From Isoetes taiwanensis (lineage: Eukaryota; Streptophyta; Lycopodiopsida; Isoetales; Isoetaceae): a stretch of DNA of 64,000 nt. Under the pieces are notes generated by a model that saw only the letters and a program-made list of their open reading frames with translations, had not been told where the DNA came from and did no database searches. The stretch spans positions 8,772,330-8,836,329 of the forward strand of contig JAJEKV010000025.1 in the NCBI GenBank assembly GCA_021234155.1, given 5' to 3'. Positions 29,556-55,375 of the stretch are shown here, piece after piece. Each line of letters begins with the position of its first letter. The first letter of the stretch is position 1. The position numbers were made by a program, and so were the translations under genes.

Positions 29556-29557
29556 GG

Positions 29558-30588
29558 CATTATTATAATGCTTGATATGGTCCCATAGAAGTTAAAATTT
29601 TGGGGTCAATGAAACTAAAGTAAAGGTACTGTTGAGGTGAAACAAGCACCAATGAGCAACTAAAATAGAAATATCCAATATGTAACATAATAACAGGGGC
29701 TCCAGGGGGATTTGCCATGGACGTATAAATGGCCATTCTTGAAACCATAGACCATAGCCCAAAAGCAATTGAATAGGTTGCTATATAAAAAAAATAAAAT
29801 CTAGACCATTTGAAAAAATAATCTAGCTTGCTAGTTGTATTGGTCAAAGTATTTTTATTAAGCCATTGGATTATTTTGGTAGAGGTTGAGTCCCAAGATT
29901 TTCATAGTCTAAAACTTTAGGCGAACTCAAATGATTCGATTCCCTTTAAAACCTTAGGCGAACTCAGTATTTCAAACTTTTAAAATCACAGTGTCCCCAA
30001 ATAAATGACTATAATTAAAATGAGAGGCACTCGAGAGGCCCCAACATATGATCTAGGTCATAAGATGGACATATCTGTCGCCCCCAAGGTAGTCCCTTTG
30101 TTTGTGCCATGCATCAGGGTAGATAGCGAGCATAATTTACTGGCTAGATCAGACGTGTCAAATAGGGTTAACAACCAAGACCATGTCTGCCGAAGCCGCT
30201 CACACAAGAAAAAACAATGCTCAATACTCTCAACCTTTTGCTTACATAAAAGACAGAGCTCTGAAATTTGATTATCAGTTTTATGGACCAGTGGATAAAA
30301 GCACGCTGTGGTGTATCAAAAACACGCATTTTGATGCCACATTTTTGCACCTTCTTTGTGGTAGAATCGGGTGGTGCATACCGAAGCAGAGATTGTGGGA
30401 GTGCGAATTAATGAGCGTCGGTTATTTTGAATTTTATGCCACGTCATTGTCCCTCATTTCGAATTAGGAAATAATCACCTCTTCTTCTGTTTTTTTCCGC
30501 TTCTTGCCGATTGAACCCTAATGGAGTCAGAATTGAATGCCACTGGTTACACGATGAAATCTGTGACGAGGCAGTACAGTATACGGTG
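29558..30588. repeat. Tandem duplication, copy 1 (1.03 kb)
   Basis: Starting at CATTATTATAATGCTTGATA, this block is almost identical to 30589-31616. It has only chance frames and no recognised family. Its end reads GATGAAATC then TGTGACG. The AAATC matches the target-site duplication of the chromovirus, and the next 27 bp weakly resemble the start of its LTR. The duplication therefore seems to have happened after the chromovirus inserted. Confidence 0.9.
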
Positions 30589-31616
30589 CATTATTATAAT
30601 GCTTGATATGGTCCCATAGAAGTTAAAATTTTGGGGTCAATGAAACTAAAGTAAAGGTACTGTTGAGGTGAAACAAGCACCAATGAGCAACTAAAATAGA
30701 AATATCCAATATGTAACATAATAACAGGGGCTCCAGGGGGATTTGCCATGGACGTATAAATGGCCATTCTTGAAACCATAGACCATAGCCCAAAAGCAAT
30801 TGAATAGGTTGCTATATAAAAAAAATAAAATCTAGACCATTTGAAAAAATAATCTAGCTTGCTAGTTGTATTGGTCAAAGTATTTTTATTAAGCCATTGG
30901 ATTATTTTGGTAGAGGTTCGAGTCCCAGTATTTCATAGTCTAAAACTTTAGGCGAACTCGTACAGTTCGATTCCCTTTAAAACCTTAGGCGAACTCGTAT
31001 TTCAAACTTTTAAAATCACAGGTGTCCCCAAATAAATGACTATAATTAAAATGAGAGGCACTCAGAGGCCCCAACATATGATCTAGGTCATAAGATGGAC
31101 ATATCTGTCGCCCAAGGTAGTCCACTGTTTGTGCCATGCATCAGGGTAGATAGCGAGCATAATTTACTGGCTAGATCAGACATGTCAAATAGGGTTAACA
31201 ACCAAGACCATGTCTGCCGAAGCCGCTCACACAAGAAAAAACAATGCTCAATACTCTCAACCTTTTGCTTACATAAAAGACAGAGCTCTGAAATTTGATT
31301 ATCAGTTTTATGGACCAGTGGATAAAAGCACGCTGTGGTGTATCAAAAACACGCATTTTGATGCCACATTTTTGCACCTTCTTTGTGGTAGAATCGGGTG
31401 GTGCATACCGAAGCAGAGATTGTGGGAGTGCGAATTAATGAGCGTCGGTTATTTTGAATTTTATGCCACGTCATTGTCCCTCATTTCGAATTAGGAAATA
31501 ATCACCTCTTCTTCTGTTTTTTTCCGCTTCTTGCCGATTGAACCCTAATGGAGTCGAGAATTGAATGCCACTGGTTACCGCGATGAAATTGTGGCGTTTC
31601 AAGACAAAGATACGGT
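30589..31616. repeat. Tandem duplication, copy 2, running into the chromovirus LTR
   Basis: Offset from copy 1 is 1031 bp at the start and 1027 bp at the end. The few differences are 1-4 base changes such as GGTTGAGTC/GGTTCGAGTC, ACTCGAGAGG/ACTCAGAGG and GGTTACACG/GGTTACCGCG. Copy 2 ends within the first 27 bp of the LTR at 31590. Confidence 0.9.
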
Positions 31617-32447
31617 CCTAAGACGATATCATCGTTTGCCGCCACGCCGCATTACCTCCATCTCGATTGGCGGTAATGTAGGCGTGTAGCCAAGCAGGTA
31701 GCACCCTAGGGGGGCAACTTGCAAGGTGTGTACATTTTATTAATGTGCACATTTACCCATGTGCACATTTATCTATGTACACATTTTCCCATGTGGACAC
31801 TTTATGCCACCTAGTTAATAAGGCAAGTGGGCCATACCCAATTATCCCACATGCTTAAAGGGATAATGGGAAACCCTAGCCCTAACCCTTGTCTATTTAG
31901 GTAAAGGAAATCCTAACTTGCTATTTTCATCCATAGCATTCTAGGTCTCTGTTTTGCTTGCTCCAGGAGCCAAAACCACCTCCCAAACTCTGTCTGAGCG
32001 ATCTAGCTCATTAGTTTTCCTTTCTAGCTTCATCTTCTAGCAGTTCAGCAGGATGGTCGAGTTCAGAGCAGGAGGAGCGAGCCAAGGATCAGGTATCTTG
32101 TCAATTTAATTAAATTGACAAGATAATTGCTATTATAATAGCCTAAACCGCCTCCCAGTCATTGAATAAGTAGGTTTAGCCTATTAAATTGCCCATAGCA
32201 GCCATCTAGATCCCTAGATATCGAGCTTTAACTAAAGAACCTAACTCTGTGATTTATATTAGATCTTGTTCTTTCGTTCTTCTGTGATGTGTATGATGAT
32301 GTATCTCTGTGAACTCACTGTATTGGTAAGGGGGGTAGAGACCCTAAGGCCTGGTAGTTGATGTTCCTAGCTAGCCTCTTTAGCACACTGAAAATTTGGC
32401 CTGTGTACAAGAACCACGTGCACCGTATATGAGTAGGGGACGTCACA
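31590..32447 (+). repeat. 5' LTR of the chromovirus
   Basis: 858 bp, TG...CA ends. 31685-32447 is almost identical to 53887-54586 plus 55341-55375. 31590-31684 matches 44949-45044 more weakly. Internal features are 21-bp-type repeats (TGTGCACATTTACCCA, 31730-31800) and a telo-box-like AAACCCTAGCCCTAACCCT (31871-31889). Compared with the 3' copy it lacks about 750 bp near 32415. Confidence 0.8.
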
Positions 32448-32480
32448 GTCAGGGAATAAATTACTAATCGCATATTTCTT

Positions 32481-32730
32481 ATTAGCCAGAATGACTTTAG
32501 CTAAACTTGCTCGATATTAATCCCAAAACTTTCTGTGGTTTAGCTAAACTCTACATATTTTTCCTTTCATACTTTCTAGCGTTTAGCTAAACTAACCCAA
32601 ATATCATCCCAAAAATTTCTATGATGTGGCCAACAGAAAACATTAAGCCAAATTACGATACTTTTTTTTAATTGTTTCCACTTAATTTAGTCATTTTCTT
32701 TGTGAAAACAATCTAAAATAATGTTAACTA
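32481..32730. repeat. Direct repeat R1 (TTTAGCTAAAC family)
   Basis: Contains AGCTAAACT, TTTCTGTGGTTTAGCTAAAC, CTTTCTAGCGTTTAGC and a T-rich stretch with TTTAGTCATTTTCTTTGTGAAAA, in the same order as in 34285-34525. A third partial copy (GATGTTAGCTAAATATGGCC) lies at 32810. Confidence 0.65.
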
Positions 32731-32830
32731 CCAAGGCCTAGGACTCAAATTAAAACGTAATGCTAGAAACTAAACTATTAATCATATATTTCATATGAAC
32801 TAGAATGATGTTAGCTAAATATGGCCTATT

Positions 32831-34284
32831 CATTTTTTACTATCTTTATCGGTTTTATTCCAGGTTTTATTCAGAGCCATTGATCTGTGGGATATCCCTG
32901 GTATTGTGCAAGATCAATGGCCATCAAGATTTTGACCCAAAAATAAAAAACCACTTCCTATGGTGTCGATCGAACACATGGTTCAAGCACAAGAAAAAAG
33001 CAAAATAAAGAAGCCATATAGTGTGCTAATTTCGTATAGTCAGCCCTCCACTGCAGCAACAAAGCAGGCAGGAAGCAAGCAGGACTGCCCCAATGAAACA
33101 CGTTGGAAACAATCCTCTTCTAGTCCTGGGCAGGAGTCCGGAATGAATTCTCCGCCAGTGCCCTGTGCCAAAGAAACCCAACACAAATAAAAAACCCTGT
33201 ATAAAGAAATAAAACCACATTATTGCAGCGTGTGCAATAATCCACGCTCTTTACGCTGCGCATAATTCTAGCAATTTACAAGATCAAATCGAATAAGGAA
33301 GCAGAGGAAGAAGCTTTGATTCTAAATCCTGTCGGGAGCAAAGCTACCGCAATTTTCCTACAAGCGGCTAAAACAATTCCTTTGGCGATTCAAAACAAAA
33401 GCGGGAGAGGGAGGATTTTAAAGCGTGTATAGAGCAAAAAAATTCTGAACAACGGTCGGCCGGGCTGTGAAGATCTTTGGATGGATGCCAAAGAAATAAA
33501 ACCCCTGTATAAACCCAAAGAAACAGAGAGGGATGCAACATTTCAATGCATTGGGGCTCGGATCTAGAGTGCAGACCGCCCATTCCGCCCGGTGAATCCG
33601 GGCGCTTCAAAGCTTGGCATTATGTACAAAGGCCGGCTCTGAAGCTATGGCGGCATTTTGAAGAATTTGCAAATGCCTTGTTCATTTGCATCGCCGGCGA
33701 AGCCCCCCGCCTCCGTCCATGCCCGTGACGACATCTTTCCACCGATTTTTGCGAAACGGCCTTGGCTGCCGCGTTCTTCCTACAAACCATCCCTTGTTCC
33801 CCACCGCCGATTCTTGCAACAATGGAACCACAGATCAACTCCGTCCACATAATACATAGATGAAGCCACGGATCCCTCATTTGGGATCTTTGGCACCTCG
33901 CCCAAAAGAAGCGGAGGATTTTGTTGCTTACCTCCTTCCTCCCCGCCAAATTGGGGACGAGTACAACCAGGCCCGGACCGAGCCATCTGCGGTAGAGCCC
34001 GTGGTGCGCGTCGCCACAATGCCTCTCCTCCATTTTGCCCTTGCCAAAAAAAGAAGGGAGCATGCCTTCTTATCCACACCCTAAAAAAAGGGCGCCAATT
34101 TTTTCTTCCCCACCAGCCTTTGCAAAAACCTCCATGAAAAAAGGAATTGCGAAGCACCCAAAATAGCAAGAAACACTCAAGCTCTTCTCACATGGCAAAT
34201 TATACCGTTTCTTATACAATACTGTACCAAAATCATAGTCCCCACCATTGCCAGAATACCCTCCCCAACCCCAAAACGAAAATA
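32831..34284. other. Segment between direct repeats; no gene recognised
   Basis: This stretch lies between R1 and R2. Minus-strand frames at 33620-34063 (147 codons) and 33780-34169 are the longest but match nothing I know. The R1-segment-R2 arrangement could be a small non-autonomous insertion in the chromovirus leader, but no target duplication was found. Confidence 0.4.
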
Positions 34285-34525
34285 GCATACTATATGATGT
34301 TAGCTAAACTAGCCCGAAATTCATTTTAAAAGTTTCTATGGTTTAGCTAAACAATATCAAATTTCATCCTCTTACTTTCTAGCATTTGGCTAAAGGGCTC
34401 CAGGGTTGGTGCAGTCCCGAAAAAAGTTAAGCTAAAACTATTATTTTTTTCCCAATTTTTTCCGTTTACTTTAGCCAATTTTTTTTGAAAATGTGCTAAA
34501 AAATCGCCAAATAGCTAAGTTTGTA
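34285..34525. repeat. Direct repeat R2 (TTTAGCTAAAC family)
   Basis: Matches R1 at 32481-32730: GTTAGCTAAACTAGCCC, AAAGTTTCTATGGTTTAGCT, TACTTTCTAGCATTTGGCT, TACTTTAGCCAATTTTTTTT. Confidence 0.65.
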
Positions 34526-35121
34526 AGTGTATTGTCAGGCCTTGAAGAGGCAGAACCTAAAAAGAAGAGGCAAATGAACATATGAAGACAAACTAACCCC
34601 AAAAGCACCGGAAGTTAACATGATAGACTGGGTTCAGAATGTAAGCAGATATCCTTCTTCCTTGTTGTTCAAATACCAGGGAAAAAAAGAGACAAAAAGT
34701 GATTATTTGCCTGGAATAGCATATAAACGGAGGAAAAGAGCAAGTCATCTTCATGCAAGTAATAAAATACACTTATAGAATAAAGAAAAAACTTGAGAAC
34801 AACAAAGACTCATAGTTCGTATCTATGGTCCTAATCCTCACCTGTCAAGTTGATTAAACAGAAGGAAAATAGGGCAGTACTCATTTCGAAAATGCCCTTA
34901 AATTATTCCATGGTCACAGTGGTATCCGAGCAATGTTCTTGGTGACCAAGAGCAAAGCACTGGCCATGCTCCCACTAGTACTAACTTAGTAGGATTCTCA
35001 AACCTCAAAAAAGTGGGAAAATTTTTTCTCATTTTTGTAGTATATGCTAAGCTAGTAACAGTTAGTAGAATTGAAAACCAAGTAAACTAAAAAGTTCAGC
35101 TAAAATTTGACTAAAAGTGGA
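34526..35121. other. AT-rich leader sequence, no gene
   Basis: No coding signal. It leads into the first regulatory hairpin of the H3-fold module. Confidence 0.4.
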
Positions 35122-35194
35122 AATGTCTCACACTATGCGCCAGAGCACCAACCTAAAATTTAGGTCGAGCCCTGGGCGCACAATGTGAGACATT
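35122..35194. promoter_or_regulatory. Hairpin hp1 upstream of the H3-fold ORF
   Basis: Arms AATGTCTCACACTATGCGCC and GGCGCACAATGTGAGACATT are complementary at 18 of 20 positions. The loop contains CCTAAAATTTAGG, itself a palindrome, so the whole 73 bp can fold. It is the first of four related hairpins. Its loop (AGAGCACCAACCTAA) is shared with hp3. Confidence 0.7.
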
Positions 35195-35333
35195 GGCCAT
35201 AATAACCTTAAAACTTGATGAATTTTAATAAGGTAAGATGCTAAATCGAATTTTAAGGTAGGAATTACCTAGATTTATATATTAGACCCCTAGGAATATG
35301 CCTGGAAATCACATAATTTAGTCTAAAATGCAC

Positions 35334-35406
35334 AATGTCTCACACTATGCGCCAGAGGCTCGATCTAATTATTAGCTCGAGCCCCCAACGCACAATGTGA
35401 GACAAA
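35334..35406. promoter_or_regulatory. Hairpin hp2 upstream of the H3-fold ORF
   Basis: Same outer arms (GTCTCACACTATGCG / CGCACAATGTGAGAC) but a different inner palindrome, GGCTCGA...TCGAGCC. Lies 212 bp after hp1 and 100 bp before the TATA box. Confidence 0.7.
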
Positions 35407-35505
35407 TGGCTTAGAAAAGTCTGAAATAAGTATATGTTTTAAGTCAATAGGTGCCTCGGCACATTAAAAAGAGCAACTTAAATTTTGACCTAAAATTGCC
35501 CAAGC

Positions 35506-35513
35506 TATAAATA
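35506..35513 (+). promoter_or_regulatory. TATA box of the H3-fold ORF
   Basis: CTATAAATAGACCT, a consensus TATAAATA, about 117 bp upstream of the first usable ATG (35630). It is paralogous to the box at 37486: both are followed by a leader containing TGCTCCC and TGAGGCG. Confidence 0.6.
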
Positions 35514-35629
35514 GACCTAGACCCCCCCTCATTTGTACGTTTCCTCTCTAGAAAATTGCTCCCACTTTTTGAGGCGATTTTTGGGCGCCCGACCTCCGAT
35601 CGGCGAACCGTAAGACATGGGCGAACCAA

Positions 35630-36891
35630 ATGATCGCCGGGTTCCTCGAGGAGATTCAGGAGATGCTTCGGGAGCGTCTTCGTGCGAGAGATGACCAACC
35701 TTCGTCGAGCGAGGGAACAGTCTCAGATGAGCACCAAGGGGAAGGATCCCAGCAGGGAGCACAAAACCGTGAGGTAGACCAGCCAGGTAGACCAAGAGAA
35801 CGCAGACTGAACGCCACGTAAGTGCTCGAGGAAATAGATGGGGATGACGCATTTAAATGCGTAGAGTAATTGGAGCAGATAGAGAAGGAGAAGCAAGATA
35901 AGGCCGAGCGTGGATGGGAGGAAAAGGCGGAGCAAGAGCGGAGGCCAAAGCACACGAAGAGCGTAGGAGGGAGCCATCCCCGAGCCGACCTCGGAGGAAG
36001 AACTCGGCACTGATTCGGAAGCATGAGGCGAAGGAACGGCGCCGAGAGAAGAAAAAGGCGGAGAAGAAGAGGAAGAGGGAGGAGAAGGAGGCCAAGGAGG
36101 CCGAGGAAAAGAAAAAGAAGAAGGACAAGTACGTGGAGGAGCCTAAGAGAAAGACAAAGAAGACGCCCAACATCAAGGTAGTCATCACGGAATGGCCAGT
36201 AGACCAGCCCGTCTCCTCCGACGACTCGGATGACGAAGACTTCAACCCCAATCTTGAAGGTGTGAGTTCTTCCAAGCCCCCAGGTGATGAGCAGGGAGCA
36301 CAGGACCAGGAGAAGCCAGAGCAGGTGCAGGCACCCCCGCCATATCCGACATGGGAGAAGGATAAGGACAACAAGAAGGCACCTCGGCCTGCCAGGGAGT
36401 CGTACGTGATAGACCCCATCAGGGTCTACCAGAAGAAGCTTAAGGCGCACAAGGATTTTATGAAGAAGTGGGAGGCTTATAACTCCTACTACCAAGCGAA
36501 CAAGGTTACTTGGGTCGAAGGTGGACGGCCGTCGAAGAAGCAGACCCTAAAGCCGCCACCAGAGAAGCCCAAACCTCCAAAGAAGTCGCCCAAAAGAAAA
36601 GGCAACTCGAACTTGAATCGAGCAATCAGGGAGATCCAGCAATTCCAGAGGAGTTTCGGCTTCCTTATTCCCCGAGCACCCTTCGCCAGGCTGGTAAAGG
36701 AAGTTGTGCAAGAATATAGCACCGAAATGAGAGTAACAGGCGAGATGCTGTTAGCTTTACAAGAAGCAGCAGAGTAGAAGCTGGTGCAGCATTTTGAAGA
36801 CTCCACGGCATGCACAGTACACGCAAAAAGGGTAACTCTAATGAGGAAAGATATGCACTTGGCTAGTCATATTAATGGAGAGCCTTACTAA
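35630..36891 (+). pseudogene. Basic protein ending in a histone H3 fold with CENH3-like features, inside the chromovirus
   Basis: The frame starts at 35630 (MIAGFLEEIQEMLRER), then passes into a Lys/Glu-rich region (35914-36160), an acidic patch (SSDDSDDEDFNPN), a Pro/Lys linker (KPPPEKPKPPKKSPKRKG) and the histone fold at 36616-36888. The fold aligns without gaps to H3 helices 1-3: RAIREIQQFQRSF, FLIPRAPFARLVKEV, MLLALQEAAE, LVQHFEDSTACTVHAKR, RVTLMRKDMHLA. LLIP- and RVTLMRKD-type motifs resemble plant CENH3, where canonical H3 has LLIRKLPF and RVTIMPKD. Loop 1 is as short as in canonical H3, so the class is uncertain. As read there are stops at 35819, 35867 and 36775 (in helix 2) and one frame change near 35940. 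GTAAGT at 35818 could be a splice donor instead. Plant CENH3 genes normally have many introns; the fold here has none. The role is unknown; I infer nucleosome or centromere targeting. Confidence 0.8.
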
Positions 36892-37030: not shown

Positions 37031-37088
37031 AATGTCTCACACTGTGCGCCAGAGCACCAACCTAAGCCCTGGGCGCACAATGTGAGAC
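37031..37088. promoter_or_regulatory. Hairpin hp3 upstream of the second module
   Basis: AATGTCTCACACTGTGCGCC and GGCGCACAATGTGAGAC arms with the hp1-type loop AGAGCACCAACCTAA, shortened by 15 bp. Confidence 0.7.
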
Positions 37089-37222
37089 CTTCACACCAAA
37101 AGTGGACCAAAACACCTCCAAATCGACCAAGTAAGGGGTCAATTCTTGCCTAACTCAATGAGACTAGTATGTTTTGACCATTAGTTTACTCAGATTGGAC
37201 AAGTATTGACCAAATTGGGCCA

Positions 37223-37292
37223 ATTGTCTCACACTATGCACCAGAGGCCTAACCTAAATTTTAGGTCGAGCCCCAGGCGCACAATGTGAGAC
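37223..37292. promoter_or_regulatory. Hairpin hp4 upstream of the second module
   Basis: ATTGTCTCACACTATGCACC and GGCGCACAATGTGAGACC arms with inner CCTAAATTTTAGG. Lies 192 bp after hp3, mirroring the hp1-hp2 spacing of 212 bp. Confidence 0.7.
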
Positions 37293-37485
37293 CTTCCAGC
37301 ATTTTCTCTTCCATCCTACACCCAATTGACCTTTAGTTTGTTGCAATAGGTCCTCTAGACAGTCCTATTCATGCTCAAACCCTCAAATTAGCCTTCCAGT
37401 CCCCATTTGGACCTCAAAATAGGTCAGGATTGGCCAACCCCAGGAAGTTCCCAAGTCATCCAAAAATTAGAGTTTTTCCCTTGTC

Positions 37486-37493
37486 TATAAATA
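37486..37493 (+). promoter_or_regulatory. TATA box of the second module
   Basis: TCTATAAATAGGCCTC, 120 bp upstream of the ATG at 37606. The following leader shares CTGCTCCCGACCTTCTAGGC and CTGAGGCGCTTTT elements with the leader of the H3-fold module. Confidence 0.6.
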
Positions 37494-37605: not shown

Positions 37606-39120
37606 ATGGCAACTGCTGATTTTAGGCGATGGTACAGCGCCAGTGCCCATGCAGCCGAGACTGATGTCAATGCAATTTTTCAAGTTTTTCGAAAACAGAT
37701 AGATGTCCAAGCCACGTTGCAAGCAACCCCAGCTTACATGGAAGTCATGACCGAATTCCAAGCTAAGGTAGGACCGTCCTTAGTACAACTCCCCCCTTGC
37801 ACAGGATACTTTGTCCCTAGGCAGTCCCTCCAAGCAGCCTTAGGTGATGTCCCCAACATTGCGAAATATCTGACCAATAAAGCTGCTAGGTTGCCAGACT
37901 ACATGGTCGTGATAGCTAATAGAAACAAGTATTTTTCCTACACCGCTGCTCTAGCCATCTTTCTTTCCCACCGAGCCCAGAACCCCATGGGGGAAACCTC
38001 TATCCCTCCCATGGATGTAGATCCCTTAGCTTCTTGTGAGATGATCGGCTCTTACTCGGTACCAAAGCGGAACAAGAAGGAAGAGCGGATGATGAACCGT
38101 CGACTCGATGGCGAAGACTACGCCGAGCTCGACCCGAAGAAGCGCCGGTTAGCGTAAGCGGTGATGCCAATTTTTGAACAAGGCCGATGGGACCCTCGGG
38201 GATCGCTCCCCCGCTTGGGCTAGGTATCACAAGCCTAGCCCCCATTATCATTGACGGCCAGGAGTACTTGCTCCTTAGTGACATCGAACCTCGAATCACG
38301 AGAGCGGGGGGACCGACTTCGCCCGAGTTGTTGTATCTCTAGCGGCAGCGGCCGAATCTGGATGACTTCATCGGCCGGGAGGCATCCGACTTCCGATCCA
38401 GTCGGAAGAAAACACACTTATCTGAAGTCGACTTGAGATATTGGCATGTCTGGCGATGTCGCCAAATGATGGAAGCTTCGGGACTGCCGTCGAAGAGGAG
38501 TTTTATGCCATTCAAGAGCGGATGGGGATCCGTGGCAAGACCAATTTAACATTTTGATGCCGAGTTCTTCGACACCAGCCCCCACAGGTGTTCAGAGAAG
38601 AGGCGAGATCGACCTGCGGCGAATTACATCGACAGTCAGGGACTATGGAGACCGTCGATGAGTATGCGGAAAGACATAGAGCCGGTGCCCGAGGAGACGA
38701 CGAGTCAACAGCAGCGGGCAGGGACAGGTCGCTGAGGTACTATCTCCCTCTGCTGAAGGACGGGAGAATAGCGGTAATTCACCATAAATTCAGCCCAAAG
38801 GCGAAGAAGTGTTCATGCTCATCGCGACTCTCGGGCTTTGGGGACATGCTTTCGGCTGGCTCCAAAAGCGACTATGACATCTTAGTCAAAGAGAACGATG
38901 GCACTTGACATCTTCGACCGTCATACCCTACCGGACGACGGGGAAGACTAGCGTTGACCTGCGGCCTACCCGTCCTAAGCGAGGGTAGAAGACTTGGTGG
39001 CGACCTTGCGGGCGGGTCATCAACGAACATCCTCAGGAACTTGGGACGCTCCGTAGGAACGGCCCAAGTTAAGAAGTTCCTCCAGGATAACCCATCCTAC
39101 CGGCGATCTCAAGATTAGTT
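37606..39120 (+). pseudogene. Unrecognised protein of the second hairpin/TATA module
   Basis: The frame from 37606 (MATADFRRWYSASAHAAETD) is open for 184 codons to 38157. I know no relative. It has a helical N-terminal region, a central part (CTGYFVPRQSLQAALGDVPN) and a basic C-terminus (DPKKRRLA) that could be a nuclear localisation signal. Coding-like pieces continue in other frames to about 39110 (IDGQEYLLLSDIEPRI, SLRYYLPLLKDGRIAVIHH, STNILRNLGRSVGTAQVKKF), so the original protein was perhaps 450-500 residues. It has its own TATA box and hairpin pair and precedes gag. It is either an accessory gene of the chromovirus or part of an element nested in it. A TATTTAAGATATCATATATA stretch follows at 39147. 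Confidence 0.5.
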
Positions 39121-39285: not shown

Positions 39286-40520
39286 GTGTATGCAGCTAGA
39301 GCTCCAGGCACAGCTGAACAAGAACGGCGAGCCCGTAGGGAAGAACAGACTCCGCCCAGGCCACACCCGGCAAGGAACCTGTATGAAGCATTTGGCCCAA
39401 TGACTCCCGAGGAGGAAATGTCTCAGATGAGAACGGACCTCCAGCAGATAAAGGCCTTCTTGGCAGCGCAAGCAGGAGGGAGCTCAGATAACAATGTCCA
39501 GTTGCCGGAAGCACCACCTCAGAAGACGAGGAAGGACAAGAAGAGGAGCAAAAGAAGGAGGTCCCCCGGCACGGAATCCTCCGACACAAGCTCGGATTCC
39601 GATTCCGACTCCAAAGAAGAGGAAGAGCAGGTGCAGGACCAAAGAGACGGCAGACACAGGGACACGAGGACCTCGGACTATCAGAAGAAGGTAGACTCAG
39701 CATTGGGAAATGTATGGAAGGCTAGGAAATGTATGGTAGACAGCAGGTCAGGCATGGAAGCAGAGGCTTGGCTTGATGAGATGAGTGAGTATGGTAACGC
39801 TTATAGCATGAAGGACAAGGACAAAGCGTGGTGCAACACCAACCTGAAGGGCAGCGTGAGGCATTTGGTGGAAGGGCTATGCAAGGCCCATGGCTTGAAC
39901 AGATGATTCTGAGTTCAAGAAGTTTGCTAAGGCTTTCAAGTGCCATTATGTACCCGAGAACATAAGTGTTACATGATGCGATAGTTTCACCGATTGCGGC
40001 AGGGCAACATGTCTGTGCTAAAGTACATAGAGGAGTTCATGAAGCTTAGATTGTATGTGCCCAAGTTGAGCAAAAGGCACGCAGTGGAAGGATACATCGA
40101 AGGGTTGAATGATGAGATAAGGAAGTTGGTAAGAGCAATCAACCCCAAGACAGTGTCAGAAGCAGAATCCAAGGCGGTGAGCTTGCAAGGAACGGGCCCT
40201 CGGTGACATTGGGCAGCCGGCATTAGCGATTATCAGGATAAGGGCAAGGCAACAGGAAGCTATAGCCCTAGAGCAGCTAGCCCGGGTCCAGCAAAGGCCC
40301 CATATAGTGGCAACTATGGGAAGCAACAGGAGAAGAAGCAGGTGTCCTTCAAAGACAAGCAGGAGGGATCAAACTACTCCAAAGCAGTGCAGTCCTTTTT
40401 GCAAGCAATGCCCAAGGAGAAGAGGCAGGCATGTATAGAGAAGTAGCTTTGCTTCAGGTGCTTCCAGCCAGGCCACAGGATGGCGAACTGCCCCTTTGTC
40501 ATGAGCGCAGCGCTAGCGGA
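39286..40520 (+). pseudogene. gag of the chromovirus with CCHC zinc knuckle
   Basis: The frame from 39286 encodes a charged N-terminus, NLYEAFGPMTPEEEMSQMRT, a basic Ser/Asp-rich stretch and WLDEMSEYGNAYSMKDKDKA, part of the retrotransposon gag fold. The frame shifts near 39905. The next piece (39994-40206) has MSVLKYIEEFMKLRLYVPKL and YIEGLNDEIRKLVRAI, conserved in plant Ty3 gags. A zinc knuckle CFRCFQPGHRMANC (CX2CX4HX4C) lies at 40450-40491, immediately after an in-frame TAG at 40444. The 5' end may lie upstream of 39286, since the frame is coding-like from the sequence TATGCAGCTAGAGC onward. The protein forms the virus-like particle and binds the RNA. Confidence 0.75.
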
Positions 40521-40890
40521 GTTGGGTGGATGGGACACTCCGTCTGACGACGACGGCGAGGCAGCACGCGACTATATTCAGGGTGAGTGTCACATTTTTG
40601 CTGCCATAGATACAGAACAAGCAGAGAATCAGTATAAGGTAATTTCCACAGTAGGGAAAGCCAAGGCCAAGTCTTTCATAGTCCTGATAGACTCGGGAAG
40701 TAGCCACAACTTTGCGTCCCCAAGAATGGTTGAGATGTTGAAGTTGAAACCGTTGAAGTCAAAGTCGAGGCTCGTGGTGTTAGCAAGTGGAGCAATGAAG
40801 ACACTGGGGGGAAAGAGGATAAACTTGACATTGATTTGCGGAAATCAACATCGGATGGGGCGTAGTAATGGGCATAGGCAAGTATGACTT
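40521..40890 (+). pseudogene. Aspartic protease domain of the chromovirus
   Basis: The frame continuing from 40480 encodes FIVLIDSGSSHNFASPRMVE. D-S-G-S-S-H-N-F is the chromovirus retropepsin active site (usually D-SGAT/STHNFI). The downstream LVVLASGAMKTLGG agrees with the flap region. The frame ends at 40887, but coding-like sequence continues in another frame (GIGKYDLIIGMEYL near 40870-40915). It is fused to gag in the same frame, as in elements with a single gag-pol ORF. Confidence 0.75.
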
Positions 40891-41159: not shown

Positions 41160-41940
41160 CTAAGTTGATCACGGGTTCCACGATCTCTTCCCGGATGAGA
41201 TTGAGCGGCTTCCTCCTTCTGAAGTCGAGTGTGAGATAGCTTTTCGAATCGAGGGAACTAAACCCGGCGAGCAAGGCTCCATACGAGAATGGCGACCACG
41301 AGGGAGGCGAGACTAAAAGAAGCGATTGCGGGGAGTTGCTTTCGACCTAGGCTTCATTAGATCTAAGCGTCTCCCCATTTAGGGCACCCATTCTTTTTGT
41401 GAAGAAGAAGGATGGCAGCTTGAGGATGTGCATAGATTACAGGCAGTTTAACAAGCACACCATCAAGAATAAGTATCGCTTCGGATCGGATGACTTGATG
41501 GATCAGCTCCAAGGGGCAAAAGTCTTCTCCAAAATTGATCTAAGGTCAGGCTATCATCAAATCAGAATGAAGGAAGAAGACGTCCACAAAACGGCTTTCA
41601 GGGACCGGTATGGGCATTACGAGTTCATGGTAATGCCATTTGGTTTATCAAATGCCCCAGCGACATTGGAGTTCTTGGATACTTTTGTGATAGTATTCTT
41701 GACGATATTACGGTGTATAGCGAGATCCACGGAAGAACACATTACAACACCTAAGAAAAGTGCTCGAGAAGTTGAGGAGGCGGCGATTTATGCGCCAAGT
41801 TGTGAAGTGCCATTTCTGTGAACGGAGGGTGGAATACCCTCTTTGGATCATGTGATCTCGACATAAGGAATTTTTGCGGATCACCGCCAAGATTGAAGCG
41901 GTGATTGATGGCGGCACCAAAAAAAAGAATGTCCATGAGG
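41160..41940 (+). pseudogene. Reverse transcriptase of the chromovirus
   Basis: The region opens near 41190 with PDEIERLPPSEVECEIAFRI in one frame. After frame changes it gives [40 protein letters not shown] and [20 protein letters not shown], all RT blocks of chromoviruses. The catalytic box reads FLDDI near 41695 in a frame shifted by one base, replacing the usual YLDDI/FIDDI. Tether sequence near 41930-42000 (EVRSFLGLAGYYRKFVKNF) is also good. A TGA at 42015 interrupts the PL-DL motif. Substitution level is low compared with the Tat-like element, so this is the younger insertion. Confidence 0.85.
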
Positions 41941-42039: not shown

Positions 42040-42640
42040 TGAAAGATTGGGCAGATCATTGGCACAAAGAAAAGCGGGGGTTTGAATTGTTGAAGGAAGC
42101 TTTGACAACCACCCCATCTTGACCTGCCGGATCGAGGAGAAGGACAAGCTTGTGGCGACAGACGCAAGTAAGATAGCCACAGGTGCAGTGCTCATGCAGG
42201 AAGAGCGGGTAGTAGCTTACGACTCCAGGAAGATGAACGACGTCGAGACGCGCTACCCGACCCATGATCAAGAGTTGCTAGCCATTGTCAGGGCACTAAG
42301 GATTTGGAGGCATTATTTGCTGAGGAGGAAGTTTCAGTTAGATACTGATCACCAGAGCCTTCAATATCTTTTCACCCAACCACTCCTCAACCTAAGGCAA
42401 AGGAGGTGGATGGAATTCCTTGAGGAATATGACTTTGACATAATGTATAAGCCCGGCAAGCTTAATGTTGTTGCAGATGCCCTCTCCAGAAGACCATTTG
42501 GGATGAGAACGCATTGTAATGCTATATCAACTCTTTCGAGTGAGTTTGGTAAGAAAATTGAGGAGACATTGCCGTTGGATGGTGATTTCAAGGAGGTATG
42601 GGCAAGCCTCTCTAGGGAGGCTAGAGCAGGATAAGGAAGG
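42040..42640 (+). pseudogene. RNase H of the chromovirus
   Basis: The frame 42119-42634 is open and carries KLVATDASKIATGAVLMQEE (Asp), YPTHDQELLAIVRALRIWRH (Glu), QLDTDHQSLQYLFTQP (Asp) and KLNVVADALSRRP (Asp), the complete RNase H acidic set. It continues into the start of the integrase region (HCNAISTLSSEF). The domain itself seems intact. Confidence 0.85.
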
Positions 42641-43465
42641 GAAGCCTTCAAACATTATAAGAAGGAAGGAAACCTGTTGTACTATAAAGACAAGTTATGT
42701 GTGCTAGAATCATCAGGGGTGAGGAAGTTGATTCTCCATGACACTCACAACAGTTCAATAGCTGGCCACACAGGATTTATGAAGACATATTTCAAAGTCT
42801 TCTTGGCGAAAACTATTATTGGCGAGGAATGAAGAAGCGGATAGCTTCGCTACATCAAAAAGTGTCGGTTATGTGTCCAGACGACGGCGAGAGCAGCCGA
42901 ACTCCAGGAGCCTTGGAACCTTTAGCGGTGCCGAACACTAAGTGGGAGGTCATCAGCATGGACTTCATAACGAGGGCTCAGGGGCGATAGAAGAGGAAAG
43001 ATGCTTTGATGGTTGTGGTCGACAAGTTATCAAAGATGGCACACTTCGTGCCTTGCAGGACCACCGACACAGGTATGGATACAACGAAGCTCTTCACCAA
43101 AGAAATCTTCAGGCTCCATGGCATGCCGAGAGAGATCATCTCCAACAGAAACTCGAAGTTCATGAGTGCCTTTTGGCAAGATCTTTTTCGCGGACGATTG
43201 AGGCGAAGCTGTCCATGAGCACGACCTATCATCCCTCGAGGACGGATGGGCAAGCGAGTGGACCAACAGAATTTTGGAAGATATGCTACGAAACTATGTC
43301 TGGAACAAGCAGAGTATGTGGGACGAGTTTATTCACTTGGTGGAGTTCGCTTAGAATAGCACCAAGCAGGAATCATCCCAAATGTCGCCATTCATGATAA
43401 ACTACGGCTACCAATGTCTAACTCTAGACACTTGGCACAATCCCGTGTCAAAAGTAGAGGTTTCG
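42641..43465 (+). pseudogene. Integrase of the chromovirus
   Basis: The HHCC zinc domain is visible as ILHDTHNSSIAGHTGF and KKCRLCVQTTARAAE, in broken frames. The catalytic core gives VISMDFITRAQG, then MVVVDKLSKMAHFVPCRT, then EIISNRNSKFMSAFWQDLF. The second Asp of the usual DRDSKF block is Asn here. The third block, STTYHPSRTDGQASGPTE, lacks the expected Glu in the frame read. A TAG near 43353 breaks the EFA-NSTKQE motif and a TAA at 43471 the following segment. These stops could come from C-to-T or G-to-A changes. Confidence 0.8.
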
Positions 43466-43471
43466 CAGTAA

Positions 43472-44055
43472 ATGTTGGCCGACATGCAGCAGCTGGTGGA
43501 AGAGGTTCGAGGATATCTTCTTGCAGCAAGGAGTCGGCAAAAGAGCATCGCCGACAAGCATCGAACAGTCAGAGAGTTCCAAGTTGGCAATGACGTGTGG
43601 CTCAAGATCAAAGTGAAGCAGGCGAAGCTCCGCATCGGAAATTGTAAGAAGCTTGCTCCAAGGTGGGCTAGACCCTTCAGAATAGTCAGGAGAGTAGGTA
43701 ATCAATCCTACAAGTTGGACCTACCAGCACACCTAAAGATTCATAAAGTCTTCCACGTGAGTTTGTTGAAGAAGCATACTCCAAATCCAGATGAAGTCTT
43801 AGACACTCTAACGTTGTTGGAAATGACAGAAGAGCAGCTGGAAATAGTTCCAGAATTGATTCTTGATAAAGCCTTCAAGAAAACAAGGAGATCAGAGTTT
43901 CTCCAATATTTGGTCAAGTAGAAACACTTGCCGGTGGAAGGCGACATGGGTACTTAAGAAGGATCTATTAAAGCAGTATCCACAGTTTATGAAGCAATGG
44001 GATGGCAAAGTCATCTCCGAAGAAATCGGCTCAGGCATGTCGATTTGTGCTTAGA
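43472..44055 (+). pseudogene. Integrase C-terminus and chromodomain
   Basis: The frame 43472-43921 encodes the GPF/SH3-like end of integrase: GNDVWLKIKVKQAKLR, LAPRWARPFRIVRRVG, HVSLLKKHTPNPDEV. It continues into PELILDKAFKKTRRSEFLQY LVK. A TAG replaces the Trp expected in the chromodomain motif VKWK. After one frame change comes ATWVLKKDLLKQYPQF, the EATWE-type end. Chromodomains define the chromovirus branch and steer integration to particular chromatin. Here it is the C-terminal 50-60 residues, and the aromatic cage residue at the TAG is lost as read. Confidence 0.8.
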
Positions 44056-44933
44056 TTAATTTCTTGTGTAGATAAGGTTAATCTACGCATGCAGCCTATG
44101 CTTGGTATGGGTTGCATGCGTTATTACCGATGATGAGACCACTACGGTGATCTCTAGGACGTGGTGTAATGTTGATGTAGGCATGACCGCGGTTCCGCTT
44201 GGATGAGTTGGAAGATAGATTAGAAAGTCTACTTCTGTCCCACGGAAGTAGACGACCTCGAGAGATAAGAGGTCATTCAGGAATGCATTGATAGGAAAGC
44301 ACCTCTAGTCCAATACCTTACGAGGAGGACCCTATCCTTCACGCCCAAATACGGGAAGGACCCTATCTTCCACGCTTGGGCAACTAAGGGTGTAGGCATG
44401 AGCACCATATAGGCATTATAGGGCGCTCTCTCCACGGCCATGATGGAAGAAGCATCCTCTTCCTACGCCGGAAGATTAGCCTTGCATCCATTTAGGTTAA
44501 TTATATGGGTGGTTACCTTACAACCATAATTTTATTAATAATTAAAATGGTACTAACGTAGTGTCGACACAATGAGGCCAATGGGCGTTCGAGGGGCAAG
44601 GAGGTGAACTCACGAACTTACAACACAAATTTTGTTGTAATGTGTTGCAAGGAATGAAAATACCTCGAAAGATAAATGTATATGAAACTGTTAAATTTTG
44701 ATAAACTAAATGACTGTAATAAGTGAGACTAATAAGTACCTTGTCTTAATGAAGTTACGAATTGAAAAGTTAGGTGATAAGTAATGACGTAATAATGTTT
44801 TAAAAATATTACCTTAAGGTAATCCTAATAATTGTGTAAGTATAATAGTAAAATATTGTATGCATCAAGTTGATTGCAGGTTAGGAAGATTCCAAGGTGG
44901 GGAGACCCACGATCTTTGCGGACGACATCATTC
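44056..44933. other. 3' untranslated region of the chromovirus
   Basis: No gene. Contains short GGAAGTAGAC and CCTATCTTCCACGC-type repeats (44230-44360). Confidence 0.5.
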
Positions 44934-44948
44934 CAAAGGTGGGGAGAA
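44934..44948 (+). promoter_or_regulatory. Polypurine tract of the chromovirus
   Basis: AAAGGTGGGGAGAA directly precedes the TGTGGCG start of the 3' LTR, the expected primer site for plus-strand DNA. A similar AAGGTGGGGAGA lies 42 bp upstream (44893-44904). Confidence 0.7.
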
Positions 44949-45044
44949 TGTGGCGTTCGGCCACGATTATCACGGTCCTAAGGCATTATCTTTCTTTGCC
45001 TAAATCAGCGTACCGCCATCTGATTGGCGATGTCGCCCGAAGCG
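44949..45044 (+). repeat. 3' LTR of the chromovirus, first part
   Basis: TGTGGCGTTCGGCC...ACGGTCCTAAGG...GATTGGCGATG parallels 31590-31684. It is cut off at GGGTAAAAGC, the end of the inserted transposon. Confidence 0.7.
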
Positions 45045-45065
45045 GGTAAAAGCTGCGTTAGGGTG
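45045..45065 (+). repeat. Left terminal inverted repeat
   Basis: GGTAAAAGCTGCGTTAGGGTG. Matches the reverse complement of 53861-53882 with one inserted base. Confidence 0.65.
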
Positions 45066-45449
45066 ATAAAATATTGGGTCATTTTAATATATATACATTT
45101 TTAGAAATGCATAATAATTACCGTGAATTTTGGTTTTTTTTTCCGACCAAAAATAGGCAATGGAAAATTCCCTCCAATTCTTTCTTCCCCGTTCTTGTTT
45201 CTTTGTCCTTTGATCTCTCTGCTTTTACCTGCGATCCAGCACCTCGATCTCTTGCAAGCGACTAAAGCACGCTCTTCCGAAGTCGCTTGGTCATTCTCAA
45301 CAAATCAAAGGTACAATCGTCTTCTTCCCTAGTTTTCTTCTTTTACGCTTTTAATTTATTACTTTAGGTTTTGTTTACATGTGAAGCTCAGATTATTTGC
45401 ACCTTTAGGACAATTAAAAGATATTTGTTGTTGCATTGCGGTATAGACA

Positions 45450-46341
45450 ATGGCAAAGACACCAAAGAAAGTGCTGCCCTGCATCGGTCAGAAAATCTCC
45501 GGGGCTTCAAAGCGGGGACACATTTGAAGTCTGGAAGTCTGGCTGTAGCAAAGGAGAACCGAAATGAGGACGATTATTTTTACGCAAAGGGATCATGAAT
45601 ATGAAATTCAAGGAAAAATTTCTGAGTACAACTCTTTAGTAATGAGAAGTTTGGGGATCTAAGGAACCTAAGAATAACGGGTACAAGGATGGTGGTGAAG
45701 TTGGAAGACCGGGCAGAATTTTTCAAGTGAGTGCGAGTTTGCATTGGTAGGAAAGATGTCTGAGAATCACTATGTTCCTTTGTATTTTGCTCGAGCATTT
45801 GCCTTACACTTAAAAGGTGAATCAGTTGATTGGGATGATGTGAAAAAAACAGCCACAGCTAAAAGCAAGGTCAAAGAATCCGAGGTTTTGACTGAAGTTG
45901 TAACAGTTAAGTCGAGCAATGCCAAGGGCCACAAGTCCTATGATACTTTCTACAAAAAAGAAGATCTGGACAGTTTGAATGTATTTCTTGAGAGCGGATC
46001 CTCTTTGAAGGAAAGCATATGTAAGGAGATCACGAGAATTTCTGAGGAGGCGAGGCTGCGGCTATATGAGACTTTGAAGCATAGGGAAGGGGAAAGGGTA
46101 GTATATTCTAAGCTAGTCCATGAGGGCGAGACTAATTACTTGAATCGATGTGTCGAGTTGGGGGCATTTCAACGTGAGATGGATGAAAGTGGACAGTAGT
46201 GCTATGAAGTTTGAGCACATAAAATGGAAGGTGGAGGATGCAATTGCTTTGAGAAAAGAGCAAGAGGGGGCGGGATCTAGGCTGAGCTTAGCAAGGAAGT
46301 GGAAGCAAAAAGCATCGAGGTTGAAGGCGACTAGATTCTGA
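45450..46341 (+). pseudogene. Unrecognised ORFs at the left side of the TIR transposon
   Basis: The frame at 45744-46199 (VGKMSENHYVPLYFARAFAL onward) is open for 151 codons and hydrophilic. It is followed by a lysine-rich piece (46150-46341). Upstream frames at 45451-45600 seem to be part of the same protein. I know no relative. The start near 45744 lies within coding-like sequence, so the true start is probably earlier and frameshifted. Confidence 0.4.
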
Positions 46342-46559
46342 ACTCAATTTAAGGTCTTCAAAAAAAAAAAAGCAATTGAGGAGGGGGACACAAAGATTTT
46401 TGGAGTTGAGGGGTTCTTAGATCCTCCTCGGTCCTTAGCTTGCAGCCTCCTCCTCTTTCTTTGGTTTGATTCTTGAGAAGCGACCAAATGCTGATTTTGA
46501 TCCTGCACAAATGGCGGCGGTGTTTTGGTTCCTCCCGGTGGTATTGGCATCTTGCGGAC

Positions 46560-48190
46560 ATCCTTACGCCTATTATGTATCTCCTATCTTGCTAGCACAA
46601 GGAACAAGCTACTTGGCCCGTACCAGTGCACATGGGATGTGAATCTACCTCGTGCATTGGGGCTGATTGGAAAAGGTAAGCATGCATAATCGATTTCTTT
46701 CATGTCTTTCTTTATTGGTTGGTGTAAGATTGGTAGATGGATATTAGTTAGAAGTTGTGCATTGGTTGTGCATTAATTGTTACGTAGTATATTAATCACA
46801 TTTGGGTTTTAAAATGTAGGTTGAAGTGAAGATTTGTAGGGTTGGATTGTTTTGCTTTTCTATTTTGGTGTAAACATCATGTTAGTACATGCATATTATT
46901 AATGTGCATGATGTCTGATGTTGCCCGGATATTATTGAGGAGTTACTTTTATGTGCTAAGAAAATAGGATAAGTAGGTAGCGCTTTGTGTGTACATTTGT
47001 ATAACATGTGGTCTTCTCTTTGGGGACATTTTGATACATCTTTGTACTCTATGATACATTTTAGTGCAATTACAATTTTCCAGTAAGCTTTTCTACACTT
47101 GGCTCCAAATACATATATCTAATATATCTAATACAGCTACATGGAATGCATTTATGAATTCTTTTTTCTAGGAAGCTTTCTACATTTGGATGTGGGTACA
47201 TAAAAGCGTACATGGATTACATAATCTGAGATACATGGGTACATTTGGAATTGAATTGTACATTGCTTTTACGGATTGTACATTTCTTTTGGTCATCTAG
47301 TTACTATTGGTAATGCTTTCATTCTTGCGGTGACATGGGTAGTATAAAAAGCCCGGAGAAAGGTATGTGATATGTGGTTATGGTCTCTTCATATGTATTT
47401 CAATTTCACCTCGTATCACGGATGCCGGCAAGAGCAGGTAGATCCTCCTGCAAAGACACTTGATTTTTCAAGTTGTGTAGATGATTATTATGGAGGGAAG
47501 CATGATAAGTCAACCCCGTCCACATCTAGGTCATCTCTGAACACATTGAACACATTTGTAGCAGAGCATGAGAGAGGAGGAAAAGGAACATCAAGTAAGT
47601 AATTAGTTTTAAATGAATTTGCTGGATTTTATTAGGAAGCAAATTGAGCTCATTTTTTTAATAACATATATAGTTGTCACAAGCAAAGCTACAATTGTAG
47701 CTTCATATGCACAACAAATTGAGCTCCTGAAGCAAAGGGCTGAATGTGGCAACACAGGTGTGTGTCCATATTAGTTTAATTTCTACATTTTCTTGATGTT
47801 TATCTTTGCTTTATTGACAATGAATTATCTTGTAATCTTTGGAACCGGGGGTGAGGAGAACAATGAAGCCGTCTCGACACTCTAAAGAAAAAAGATATTA
47901 TTGTAGAGGTCTTCGACACTCCAAAGAAAACAATTGTAGACAAGGTGCAGAAGGTACCAATTCTAAAGCCAATGCCACATCATCAGACCGAACTTGAAAT
48001 GTTGTTTTCAAATGGTAAGTCAAAAACTACTTATTGCATTTATTTATTGCATGTTCATACATTTTATTATTCGCAGAAACAAAGGAAACTAGTGGATCTA
48101 TGGCCTTAGTTGGAACTACAATCGAAAAGATTGAAGAATCATGTAAAGGCAGGAACATATACAAGCTGGTCTTGAAGAAATTTTAGTGGA
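46560..48190 (+). other. Possible exons of a transposon gene, no family recognised
   Basis: Coding-like pieces are separated by AT-rich stretches with splice-like borders: about 46614-46675 before GGTAAG, and 47440-47596 (PAKTLDFSSCVDDYYGGKHD) before AAGTAAGT. Shorter pieces lie at 47690-47760, 47860-48015 and 48078-48185. This looks like a multi-exon gene leading into the ULP1 exons, but no motif identifies it. Confidence 0.35.
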
Positions 48191-48669
48191 GAATGTGGCT
48201 CTGAGATATAAGCGGTGGTTGTGGTGAAGCAAGAGAAGGCGAGTCGAGGATAGAACGGAATCTGAGATAGTGGTGTGAGCGAGAAAGAGTCAAGAAAAAG
48301 AAAAGATACAAAGGTGTCGTGACCAGCTAAAGAGAACTAGAACCCGGACATCGGTTGAGCAAGCTATAAGTATAATTGGATTAGTAAATATATGTTTTAT
48401 GCTAGTTACCATTGATGCTTGGTTTTGCGGTGACATGGATAATCTTCGGACAATGGTTCCATTCTATTCGTTCCAAGGTGAACCTCGATTAAGGTCACGA
48501 AATATTGTGTGGAGACATTGTTTAAAGATAGGCACATGTCTAACGGACATTTAGACATATTTGGAAGGTATGTGGCAGACACATTTGACATCAAATGGCG
48601 AGATGTCTTCTTTTTTCTTCCTTGAGAAAACTTTTTGACTTATCGGGCAGCATTTAAAGATTAATACGG

Positions 48670-53860: not shown

Positions 53861-53882
53861 CACCCTAACGTGCTTTTACCCC
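53861..53882 (-). repeat. Right terminal inverted repeat
   Basis: CACCCTAACGTGCTTTTACC, inverted copy of 45045-45065. Confidence 0.65.
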
Positions 53883-55375
53883 GACGTGTAGCCAAGCAGG
53901 TAGCACCCTAGGGGGCAACTTGCAAGGTGTGTACATTTTATTAATGTGCACATTTACCCATGTGCACATTTATATATGTACACATTTTCCCATGTGGACA
54001 CTTTATGCCACCTAGTTAATAAGGCAAGTGGGCCATACCCAATTATCCCACATGCTTAAAGGGATAATGGGAAACCCTAGCCCTAACCCTTGTCTATTTA
54101 GGTAAAGGAAACCCTAACTTGCTATTTTCGTCCATAGCATTCTAGGTCTCTGTTTTGCTTGCTCCAGGAGCCAAAACCACCTCCCAAACTCTGTCTGAGC
54201 CATCTAGCTCATTAGTTTTCCTTTCTAGCTTCATCTTCTAGCGGTTGGGATGGATGGTGAGTTGAGGAGGGGAGGGGCGAGCCAAGGATCAGGTATCTTG
54301 TCAATTTAATAGCCTAAACCGCCTCCAGGTCATTGAATAAGTAGGTTTAGCCTATTAAATTGCCATAAAACCATCTAGATCCTAGATATCGAGCTCTAAC
54401 TAAAGAACATAACTCTGTGATTTAGATTAGATCTTGTTCTTTAGTTCTTCTGTGATGTGTATGATGATGTATCTCTGTGAACTCACTGTATTGGGAAAGG
54501 GGGTAGAGACCCTAAGGCACGGTAGTTGATGTTCCTAGCTAGCCTCTTTAGCACCTTTGTAAATTTGGCGTGTGTACAAGAACCACACGGTTGTGGGTGA
54601 AGGGGCTAGGCTGGGTGACAAGGAGGTTCATGTGGACTCCGCGAGCGATCCCTCACGGTGTGTAAAGCCTACCGGGGGATCCACGTGGACTAGGTCTAAT
54701 GGCTTGCCCGCTGGCGTGTGGGCAAGGCATGGGCTCGGTTGCCAGTGGAGTGATATGTCACTCTCCATTGGGTTCAAGTCGAATAAGGCGGTGGCCCTCT
54801 AGTTGCCTTAGTCGGCATGTAGATCTCGGAGGGGTGATCCCTACACGCCCCATCGGGCGGGGAGATGCAACCCGGGAATAGCCCCTTTGGCTATGCATCC
54901 GTGGCTCTCTGATCGAGGTCCCAACACTTTTCAACCTACTTTGCAAAGTGTGTGCGGGGAGGAGGCGGATGGAGTGGACTACCCTAAGCCATGTTCTCAT
55001 GCGGCCAAATCCATTGCCATGAATTACATGCGCAATGAACCACGGAGACCAGAGCCGTCGGTCATCCCTTGGGTCCCGAGCCTTGGGTAGGATCCCCATA
55101 TGTGATGTGCTGATCTTTGTCTATGCAGATATATGATGCGTCATCCTTTGAGATGGTTATGTAATGTGATGTTGTATATTAACATGTATGTTACGCTTCC
55201 GCAGCTAGGTAGGCCCTGAGGAAGATAGGACAAATGACCCCTTCATTCTTCCCACTGGAACTCATCAAGGTTGCAGTGATACGTGGAGGGCCCTGTATCA
55301 GTGTGGAGCTGGTATGGGGGATGAACTCCTGTTTGTATACGGTGAGTGCACCGTATATGAGTAGGGGACGTCACA
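53883..55375 (+). repeat. 3' LTR of the chromovirus, second part
   Basis: From TGTAGCCAAGCAGG (53887) it is almost identical to 31685-32415. It then has about 750 extra bases (54587-55340) and ends with the same GTGCACCGTATATGAGTAGG to GACGTCACA as the 5' LTR. AAATC follows. Confidence 0.85.
54587..55340. other. LTR segment absent from the 5' LTR
   Basis: About 750 bp of more GC-rich sequence lie between AAGAACCAC and GTGCACCGTATATGAG, which are directly joined in the 5' LTR at 32415. No terminal repeats or target duplication were seen, so a deletion from the 5' LTR is as likely as an insertion here. No gene recognised. Confidence 0.6.

Follow-up and report, generated by a model that had tools for sequence, protein, structure and literature searches.

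Extra ORFs (eORFs) of at least 250 codons have been described in the 5' or 3' part of thousands of plant Ty3/gypsy and chromovirus elements (PMC6317226). These elements resemble the one analysed here in their LTRs and in the gag-PR-RT-RH-IN order, but the available part of that paper names no histone ORF and mentions histones only with regard to chromodomains. Two papers that deal with chromodomain elements in non-seed plants (PMC2864245, PMC3350952) mention histones, as far as the papers are available, only as chromodomain partners or chromatin marks. The captured ORF3s of bdelloid LTR retrotransposons include env-like, GDSL esterase/lipase and DEDDy exonuclease genes (PMC5408684); capture of unrelated accessory genes is common to them and to the element described here, whereas the captured genes named in the available text are non-histone, unlike the element's H3.

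Viral histones are described from DNA viruses and include the marseillevirus doublets, medusavirus histones and the bracovirus H4, which enters host nucleosomes and acts via its N-terminal tail (PMC9145170, PMC5423620). As far as these papers are available, the likeness lies in a captured core histone within a mobile genome; the difference is that the carrier here is a reverse-transcribing LTR element, in which the H3 tail stands ~300 residues from the fold. The available part of the viral histone review (PMC9145170) makes no mention of a retrotransposon, and the main texts of the I. taiwanensis (PMC8566536) and I. sinensis (PMC10541799) genome papers, as far as available, make none of a histone. 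A search of open-licence papers found no retrotransposon-encoded histone among the titles and abstract openings listed, and an earlier note on this DNA likewise named no described retrotransposon that combines an H3 fold of this kind with a chromodomain. The element's H3 shares the MARTKQTAR start, the H3 fold and interface residues with host H3 and CENH3 but differs from them in its ~50% fold identity, its long charged arm and its presence in many copies within LTR elements.

The element and its H3-type gene in the window

The window is a stretch of 64,000 nucleotides of Isoetes taiwanensis DNA, and the element found in it is a Ty3/gypsy LTR retrotransposon by its LTRs, primer site and PR-RT-RH-IN order. 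The features identified were as follows (window positions, with strand).

31590..32448, +, 5' LTR, internally deleted, keeping LTR positions ~1-793 and 1540-1570 (blastn with the LTRs of 10 other loci)
32449..34912, no strand, later insertion of 2464 bp between the LTR end and the primer site, flanked on both sides by GTCACAG
34920..34931, +, primer binding site TGGTATCCGAGC, in most copies TGGTATCAGAGC; presumably of the tRNA-iMet type
35122..35194, +, hairpin repeat 1 of 4, TGTCTCACA...TGTGAGAC
35336..35404, +, hairpin repeat 2 of 4
35505..35513, +, TATA box CTATAAATA upstream of the H3-ORF, 112 nt from the ATG (in 17 of 20 other loci)
35617..36891, +, H3-ORF, decayed: ATG 35617, frameshifted tail, open frame 35902-36774, TAG 36775, TAA stop 36889
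36616..36774, +, H3 fold, piece 1 (~H3 residues 45-97), by Pfam Histone and PDB H3
36778..36888, +, H3 fold, piece 2 (~H3 residues 99-133), by Pfam Histone and PDB H3
37031..37091, +, hairpin repeat 3 of 4
37222..37295, +, hairpin repeat 4 of 4
37485..37493, +, TATA box CTATAAATA upstream of ORF2, 121 nt from its ATG (in 15 of 20 other loci)
37606..38157, +, ORF2, broken in the window; open (318 aa) in the copy at locus L048
39271..39906, +, gag piece, by position and conservation (same slot in 13 of 20 loci; no Pfam gag match)
40447..40887, +, zinc knuckle (Pfam zf-CCHC E 0.0069, under the cut-off) with aspartic protease (Pfam RVP_2 E 6.6e-5)
41351..41821, +, reverse transcriptase piece (Pfam RVT_1 E 7.6e-16)
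42086..42634, +, RNase H (Pfam RT_RNaseH E 1.6e-33)
42942..43397, +, putative integrase piece, by place and reading (homologous piece 3' of RNase H in 4 of 20 loci)
43472..43921, +, integrase C-terminus (Tf2-1-like SH3; Pfam SH3_Tf2-1 E 1.1e-20), then a possible chromodomain start cut by a stop
53877..55375, +, 3' LTR without its first ~82 nt (blastn with the LTRs of other loci)

The H3 histone fold was located at 36616-36888 on the forward strand, with one in-frame TAG inside it (36775-36777). Because the TAG splits the fold, its halves were searched apart. The Pfam Histone family (PF00125, cut-off 26.4 bits) matched 36616-36774 with E 6.6e-11 and 43.0 bits, and 36778-36888 with E 4.9e-7 and 30.5 bits, also above the cut-off, and H3 chains of the Protein Data Bank (PDB) gave a gap-free collinear alignment with both pieces. 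The H3 fold that the earlier note had read here was thus borne out by the Pfam and PDB matches but is broken by the TAG. Downstream of the ATG at 35617 the tail was frameshifted, and MARTKQTAR, intact in open copies, was present only as a decayed trace. With this frameshift and the TAG the window copy is therefore unable to make the protein, and the window element is a dead copy.

The earlier note had also placed the fold between the 5' LTR and gag, and this placement was right, but the 2464-bp insertion separates the LTR from the primer site. The 3' LTR differed from the 5' LTR at 31 of ~700 ungapped aligned bases. A chromodomain, likewise attributed to the element in the earlier note, was not confirmed: the 33 residues past SH3_Tf2-1 gave no Pfam chromodomain match, 47 residues from the same place matched only leucine-rich-repeat proteins in the PDB, and the frame stops there. 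Between the integrase end and the 3' LTR lie ~10 kb (43922-53876), which are probably nested insertions; an ORF inside them (45699-46199) matched no Pfam family above cut-off. Elsewhere in the window, a ~1 kb tandem duplication of 97.7% identity (29557-31596) ends at the 5' LTR start, and the stretch 22535-23980 contains a gene for a pectinesterase together with part of a PMEI domain (Pfam E 1.1e-90 and 2.4e-10).

Upstream of both the H3-ORF and ORF2, a pair of hairpin repeats was followed by the TATA box. Further copies of the element also showed these hairpins (35122-35404 and 37031-37295) in recognisable form. Compared with each other by blastn, the two promoter-like regions showed 69-71% identity over 280-295 nt in 3 of the 20 loci and were similar over only 88-94 nt in 2 further loci. 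The TATA box which the earlier note had assigned to the H3 gene itself was found at 35505 and recurs at the other loci as listed above. This box makes a separate transcript probable, and we infer that the H3-ORF and ORF2 may each have their own. The idea that a small element has its LTRs in the promoter-like regions (35.1-35.6 and 37.0-37.6 kb) was rejected because the LTRs were located elsewhere and both regions are internal. ORF2 was conserved between the window (37606-38157) and L048 (positions 4539-5492). No Pfam family above cut-off was found for the L048 copy and no protein-database relative for the window piece, and the AF2 model of ORF2 (pLDDT 41.5) was too poor for use.

The family across the genome and selection on the H3-ORF

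A genome of 1,658,258,908 bases in 1110 contigs was searched with the 53 residues of the fold before the TAG. The search produced 5076 first-look candidates, 150 of which were scored; 141 of these 150 had no stop within the 53-residue match, and open frames reached up to 507 aa. Loci were fetched at two lengths, 20 at 10 kb and 30 shorter, with the window among the latter, and removal of 7 overlaps left 43 distinct places. The 10-kb loci, which extend to ~6.5 kb past the fold, showed the order 5' LTR, primer site, H3-ORF, ORF2, gag, protease, RT, RNase H and integrase. The fold survived in all 20 of them, ORF2 in 15, gag in 13, the zinc knuckle/protease in 13, RT in 7, RNase H in 5 and the integrase piece in 4. 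One locus (L033) held a second partial copy of the element.

A sharp 5' LTR start was found in 10 loci; nine of these read TGTGACGT and the tenth TGTGACAT. The LTR length was ~1.52-1.59 kb. The H3-ORF stood at the same place across copies, with the LTR end and then the primer site TGGTATC(A/G)GAGC upstream in 15 of the 20 loci and gag downstream in 13, as expected if the gene belongs to the element. The exact 23-base junction of LTR and primer site occurred at 997 genomic sites (reversed control 0). A degenerate 26-base pattern of the tail start, with up to 2 mismatches allowed, occurred at 3743 sites genome-wide (control 21), a count that includes host H3 genes (15 full-length, 96-98%).

Thirty-eight junctions on contigs C1-C257 were chosen regardless of H3 and compared with tail starts, exact matches only; both listings were in contig order, so exact matches on C1-C257 were covered. 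An exact tail start lay downstream on the same strand at 15 of the 38 junctions, at a distance of 627-690 nt in 13 of these and of 500 and 907 nt in the others, while no tail start lay on the opposite strand within 3 kb of any of the 38. The remaining 23 junctions lacked an exact tail start over a range of 3 kb and may be decayed, truncated or H3-less. Among the outcomes that the earlier note had named as speaking against its reading, two were looked at. Family members shown to be without the H3 fold did not turn up, these 23 junctions being as just described, and the gene was not a single degraded host copy but a high-copy family under purifying selection. A passenger or a chance match was rejected on copy number, place and selection: the H3-type gene is part of the Ty3/gypsy element and not a one-off passenger.

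The dN/dS comparison proposed in the earlier note showed that the H3-ORF is under purifying selection. The codon-model omega was 0.078 for the fold (36 copies), a value biased downward by the exclusion of broken folds, 0.217 for the arm (13 copies) and 0.204 for the whole ORF (13 copies), all from copies found via protein similarity, which favours conserved ones. As the copies had been picked by similarity to residues 45-97, omega was rerun on residues 98-126, outside the search query, and was 0.085. Comparator values from open pieces only of the same loci were 0.112 for RT (6 sequences), 0.152 for protease (10) and 0.242 for gag (7). The 36 folds were the full-length pattern matches among 49 rows minus 6 duplicates, the broken copy of the window having been excluded beforehand; the 7 rows missed by the pattern were L008 (substitution) and L010, L015, L019, L029 and L030 with the duplicate L047 (stop or frameshift).

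Mean pairwise synonymous distances were 0.79-1.07. Saturated or undefined pairs were left out, so that each region was averaged over 37 to 64 of its 78 pairs and the folds over 306 of 630. Non-synonymous divergence in the fold was low. At these synonymous distances the H3 gene has been long resident in the family. Pairwise distances of the H3-ORF correlated with those of the protease (rho 0.44, 1 of 2000 permutations) and RT (rho 0.51, 25 of 2000) and weakly with those of the LTR (rho 0.23, 71 of 2000). The test is low in power because its own yardstick, protease against RT, was not significant (rho 0.25, 293 of 2000); LTR against RT gave rho -0.11.

The protein of the open copies and its ancestry

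In open copies the predicted H3-ORF product was 410-467 aa long and consisted of an H3 tail, a charged arm of ~300 residues and a C-terminal H3 fold. A single open frame joined tail and fold at 15 of the 43 distinct loci, 2 of which frameshift late in the fold. The alignment was made of 13 open proteins, each starting with MART, and common to all were MARTK(Q/E)T(A/T)R, the Glu/Lys-rich arm and the C-terminal fold, together with a conserved arm segment around YVIDPxKVYQKKL...KWEAYNSYY. The charged tail fused to the fold in the earlier note was therefore present, but it measures ~300 residues, not ~230, and opens with MARTKQTAR in open copies. A profile of the 13 copies matched H3 chains of the PDB with E 2.7e-30, and the best-matching chain aligned the tail (1-21) residue by residue. 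The AF2 model of the whole H3-ORF protein (pLDDT 57.4) was too poor for use.

After ARTK(Q/E)T(A/T)R the sequence continued with KP or VP, and serine 10 was found in 0 of the 13 aligned open copies. Two tail types were seen among the exact tail starts on C1-C257, lysine 9 being kept in 55 of 100, a number that includes two host H3 genes. A general loss of tail lysine 9 in the family was rejected on this count.

An unfiltered count of residues over the 43 distinct loci gave R69 in 43, R83, H113, K115, R116 and T118 in 42 each, D123 in 41 (2 unaligned) and L126 in 40 (3 unaligned). H113, R116 and D123 are residues of the H3-H3' interface, and the fold encoded by the open copies is complete and keeps the residues of this interface and those that contact DNA at the dyad. 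R63 was replaced by P in 43 of 43 loci, K56 and K79 were replaced in the family folds, and HRFRPGTV, the segment before the alpha-N helix, was absent; several nucleosomal DNA contacts (R63, K56, K79, HRFRPGTV) would thus be lost, which speaks against entry into nucleosomes. At the C-terminus L126 was retained and residues 128-129 were altered.

The 13-row profile gave 444 matches in the protein database. The best 120 of the 444 covered at most 51% of the query and, judged by name and by the three sequences inspected (P0019, P0133 and P0134), are apparently canonical or fused H3 gene models, in none of which the charged arm was recognised. The window piece gave 16 matches, each covering at most 29%, and viral contigs gave no match.

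Mean fold identity was about equal to H3 (50.6-51.7%) and to plant CENH3 (48.2-50.4%), and the best identity in the compared set was to protein P0015 (55.4%). In the fold tree the element family joined two plant CENH3s with 73% support, on long branches. The CENH3-like motifs of the earlier note were recovered in the family as LIPRAPF and RVTLM(R/K)KD, along with EIRHFQ. A longer loop 1 is typical of plant CENH3; it was absent in the 14 aligned family copies, in which loop 1 had the canonical H3 length that the earlier note had given.

A canonical H3 query of the genome produced 9022 candidates, and the 150 scored comprised 15 full-length host genes (96-98%) and 135 other matches with 71-86% identity, many in long open frames. 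A second H3 repeat, F2, was identified at L051 (C1061:1000150-1001650) and L052 (C1034:26617450-26618950); it is a candidate LTR element, taken as a repeat family from these two fetched loci. Its protein (412-413 aa) had an unrelated N-terminus, no H3 tail and a near-canonical C-terminal H3 fold, which was identical in both loci, showed 84-85% identity to Arabidopsis H3 and joined two plant H3s at 79% in the fold tree. The 1.4 kb downstream of F2 resembled ORF2 weakly by tblastn (4e-4; best of the reversed control 0.16), too weakly for F2 to be classed as a related element.

Possible function of the element-encoded histone

A high-copy Ty3/gypsy element carries an H3-type histone gene, and we consider it likely that the encoded protein acts in chromatin with host H4. 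In the proposed mechanism the H3-ORF would be transcribed separately from its own TATA box, its protein would pair with host H4 and bind DNA, and the element-encoded H3 would be loaded into nucleosomes or nucleosome-like particles; chromatin carrying it would then allow new copies to avoid silencing, or would steer or tether integration. The conserved tail and fold interface, the variable arm and the retention of the gene through divergence fit a chromatin protein that pairs with H4. We lean slightly towards pairing of the protein with host H4, DNA binding and entry into nucleosomes or nucleosome-like particles. The benefit to the element would most probably lie at chromatin: new element copies might be shielded from silencing, a tentative suggestion at best, and steering or tethering of integration is put forward just as tentatively. 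That the element, with thousands of copies encoding such an H3, makes its own nucleosome variant, a K4-type tail on a long charged arm, whose deposition would protect copies or target integration, is plausible at slightly under even confidence.

Other readings of the same gene were weighed against this one. The H3 fold could belong to a protein that condenses DNA or RNA, or to a gag-like particle protein, which would stay outside chromatin and leave the packaging to the charged arm. The position of the H3-ORF upstream of gag, the long Glu/Lys-rich arm and the loss of some nucleosomal DNA contacts agree with such a role, but conservation of MARTK(Q/E)T(A/T)R (3743 tail-start sites) and of H113, R116 and D123 at the H3-H3' interface is unexpected for a mere packaging protein, and we regard this role as unlikely. 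The conserved tail on an arm otherwise unlike H3, and a C-terminus with L126 kept and residues 128-129 altered, would also suit a dominant mimic of host histone outside nucleosomes, whose tail titrates H3K4 readers and writers or whose fold titrates chaperones; we hold this to be doubtful.

A captured CENH3 guiding the element to centromeres would account for the EIRHFQ, LIPRAPF and RVTLM(R/K)KD motifs and for the grouping with plant CENH3s at 73%. It is improbable, however, given the canonical-length loop 1, the about equal identity to H3 with P0015 as best match, and a tree of long branches that holds only two plant CENH3s. For a host H3 gene carried as the chance passenger of one sub-lineage, the broken window copy and the 23 of 38 junctions without an exact tail start can be cited; it is made very improbable by a fold whose synonymous divergence averages close to 1 while its non-synonymous divergence is low, by thousands of tail starts and by co-variation with the protease.

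The reading preferred here, a histone gene of the element acting in chromatin with host H4, bears on how LTR elements deal with chromatin. Chromodomains enable LTR elements to read histone marks, and a histone-encoding element could supply the chromatin substrate itself. Transposon action on chromatin thereby becomes directly testable with one protein. The finding suggests that capture of core histones extends beyond DNA viruses to reverse-transcribing elements. The H3-like tails and folds, which number in the thousands in this genome, could also be confused with host histone genes. If the element does make its own nucleosome variant, the presence of two unrelated-looking ORF designs in one genome, the H3-ORF family and F2, would indicate that quillwort repeats recruited H3 repeatedly or long ago.
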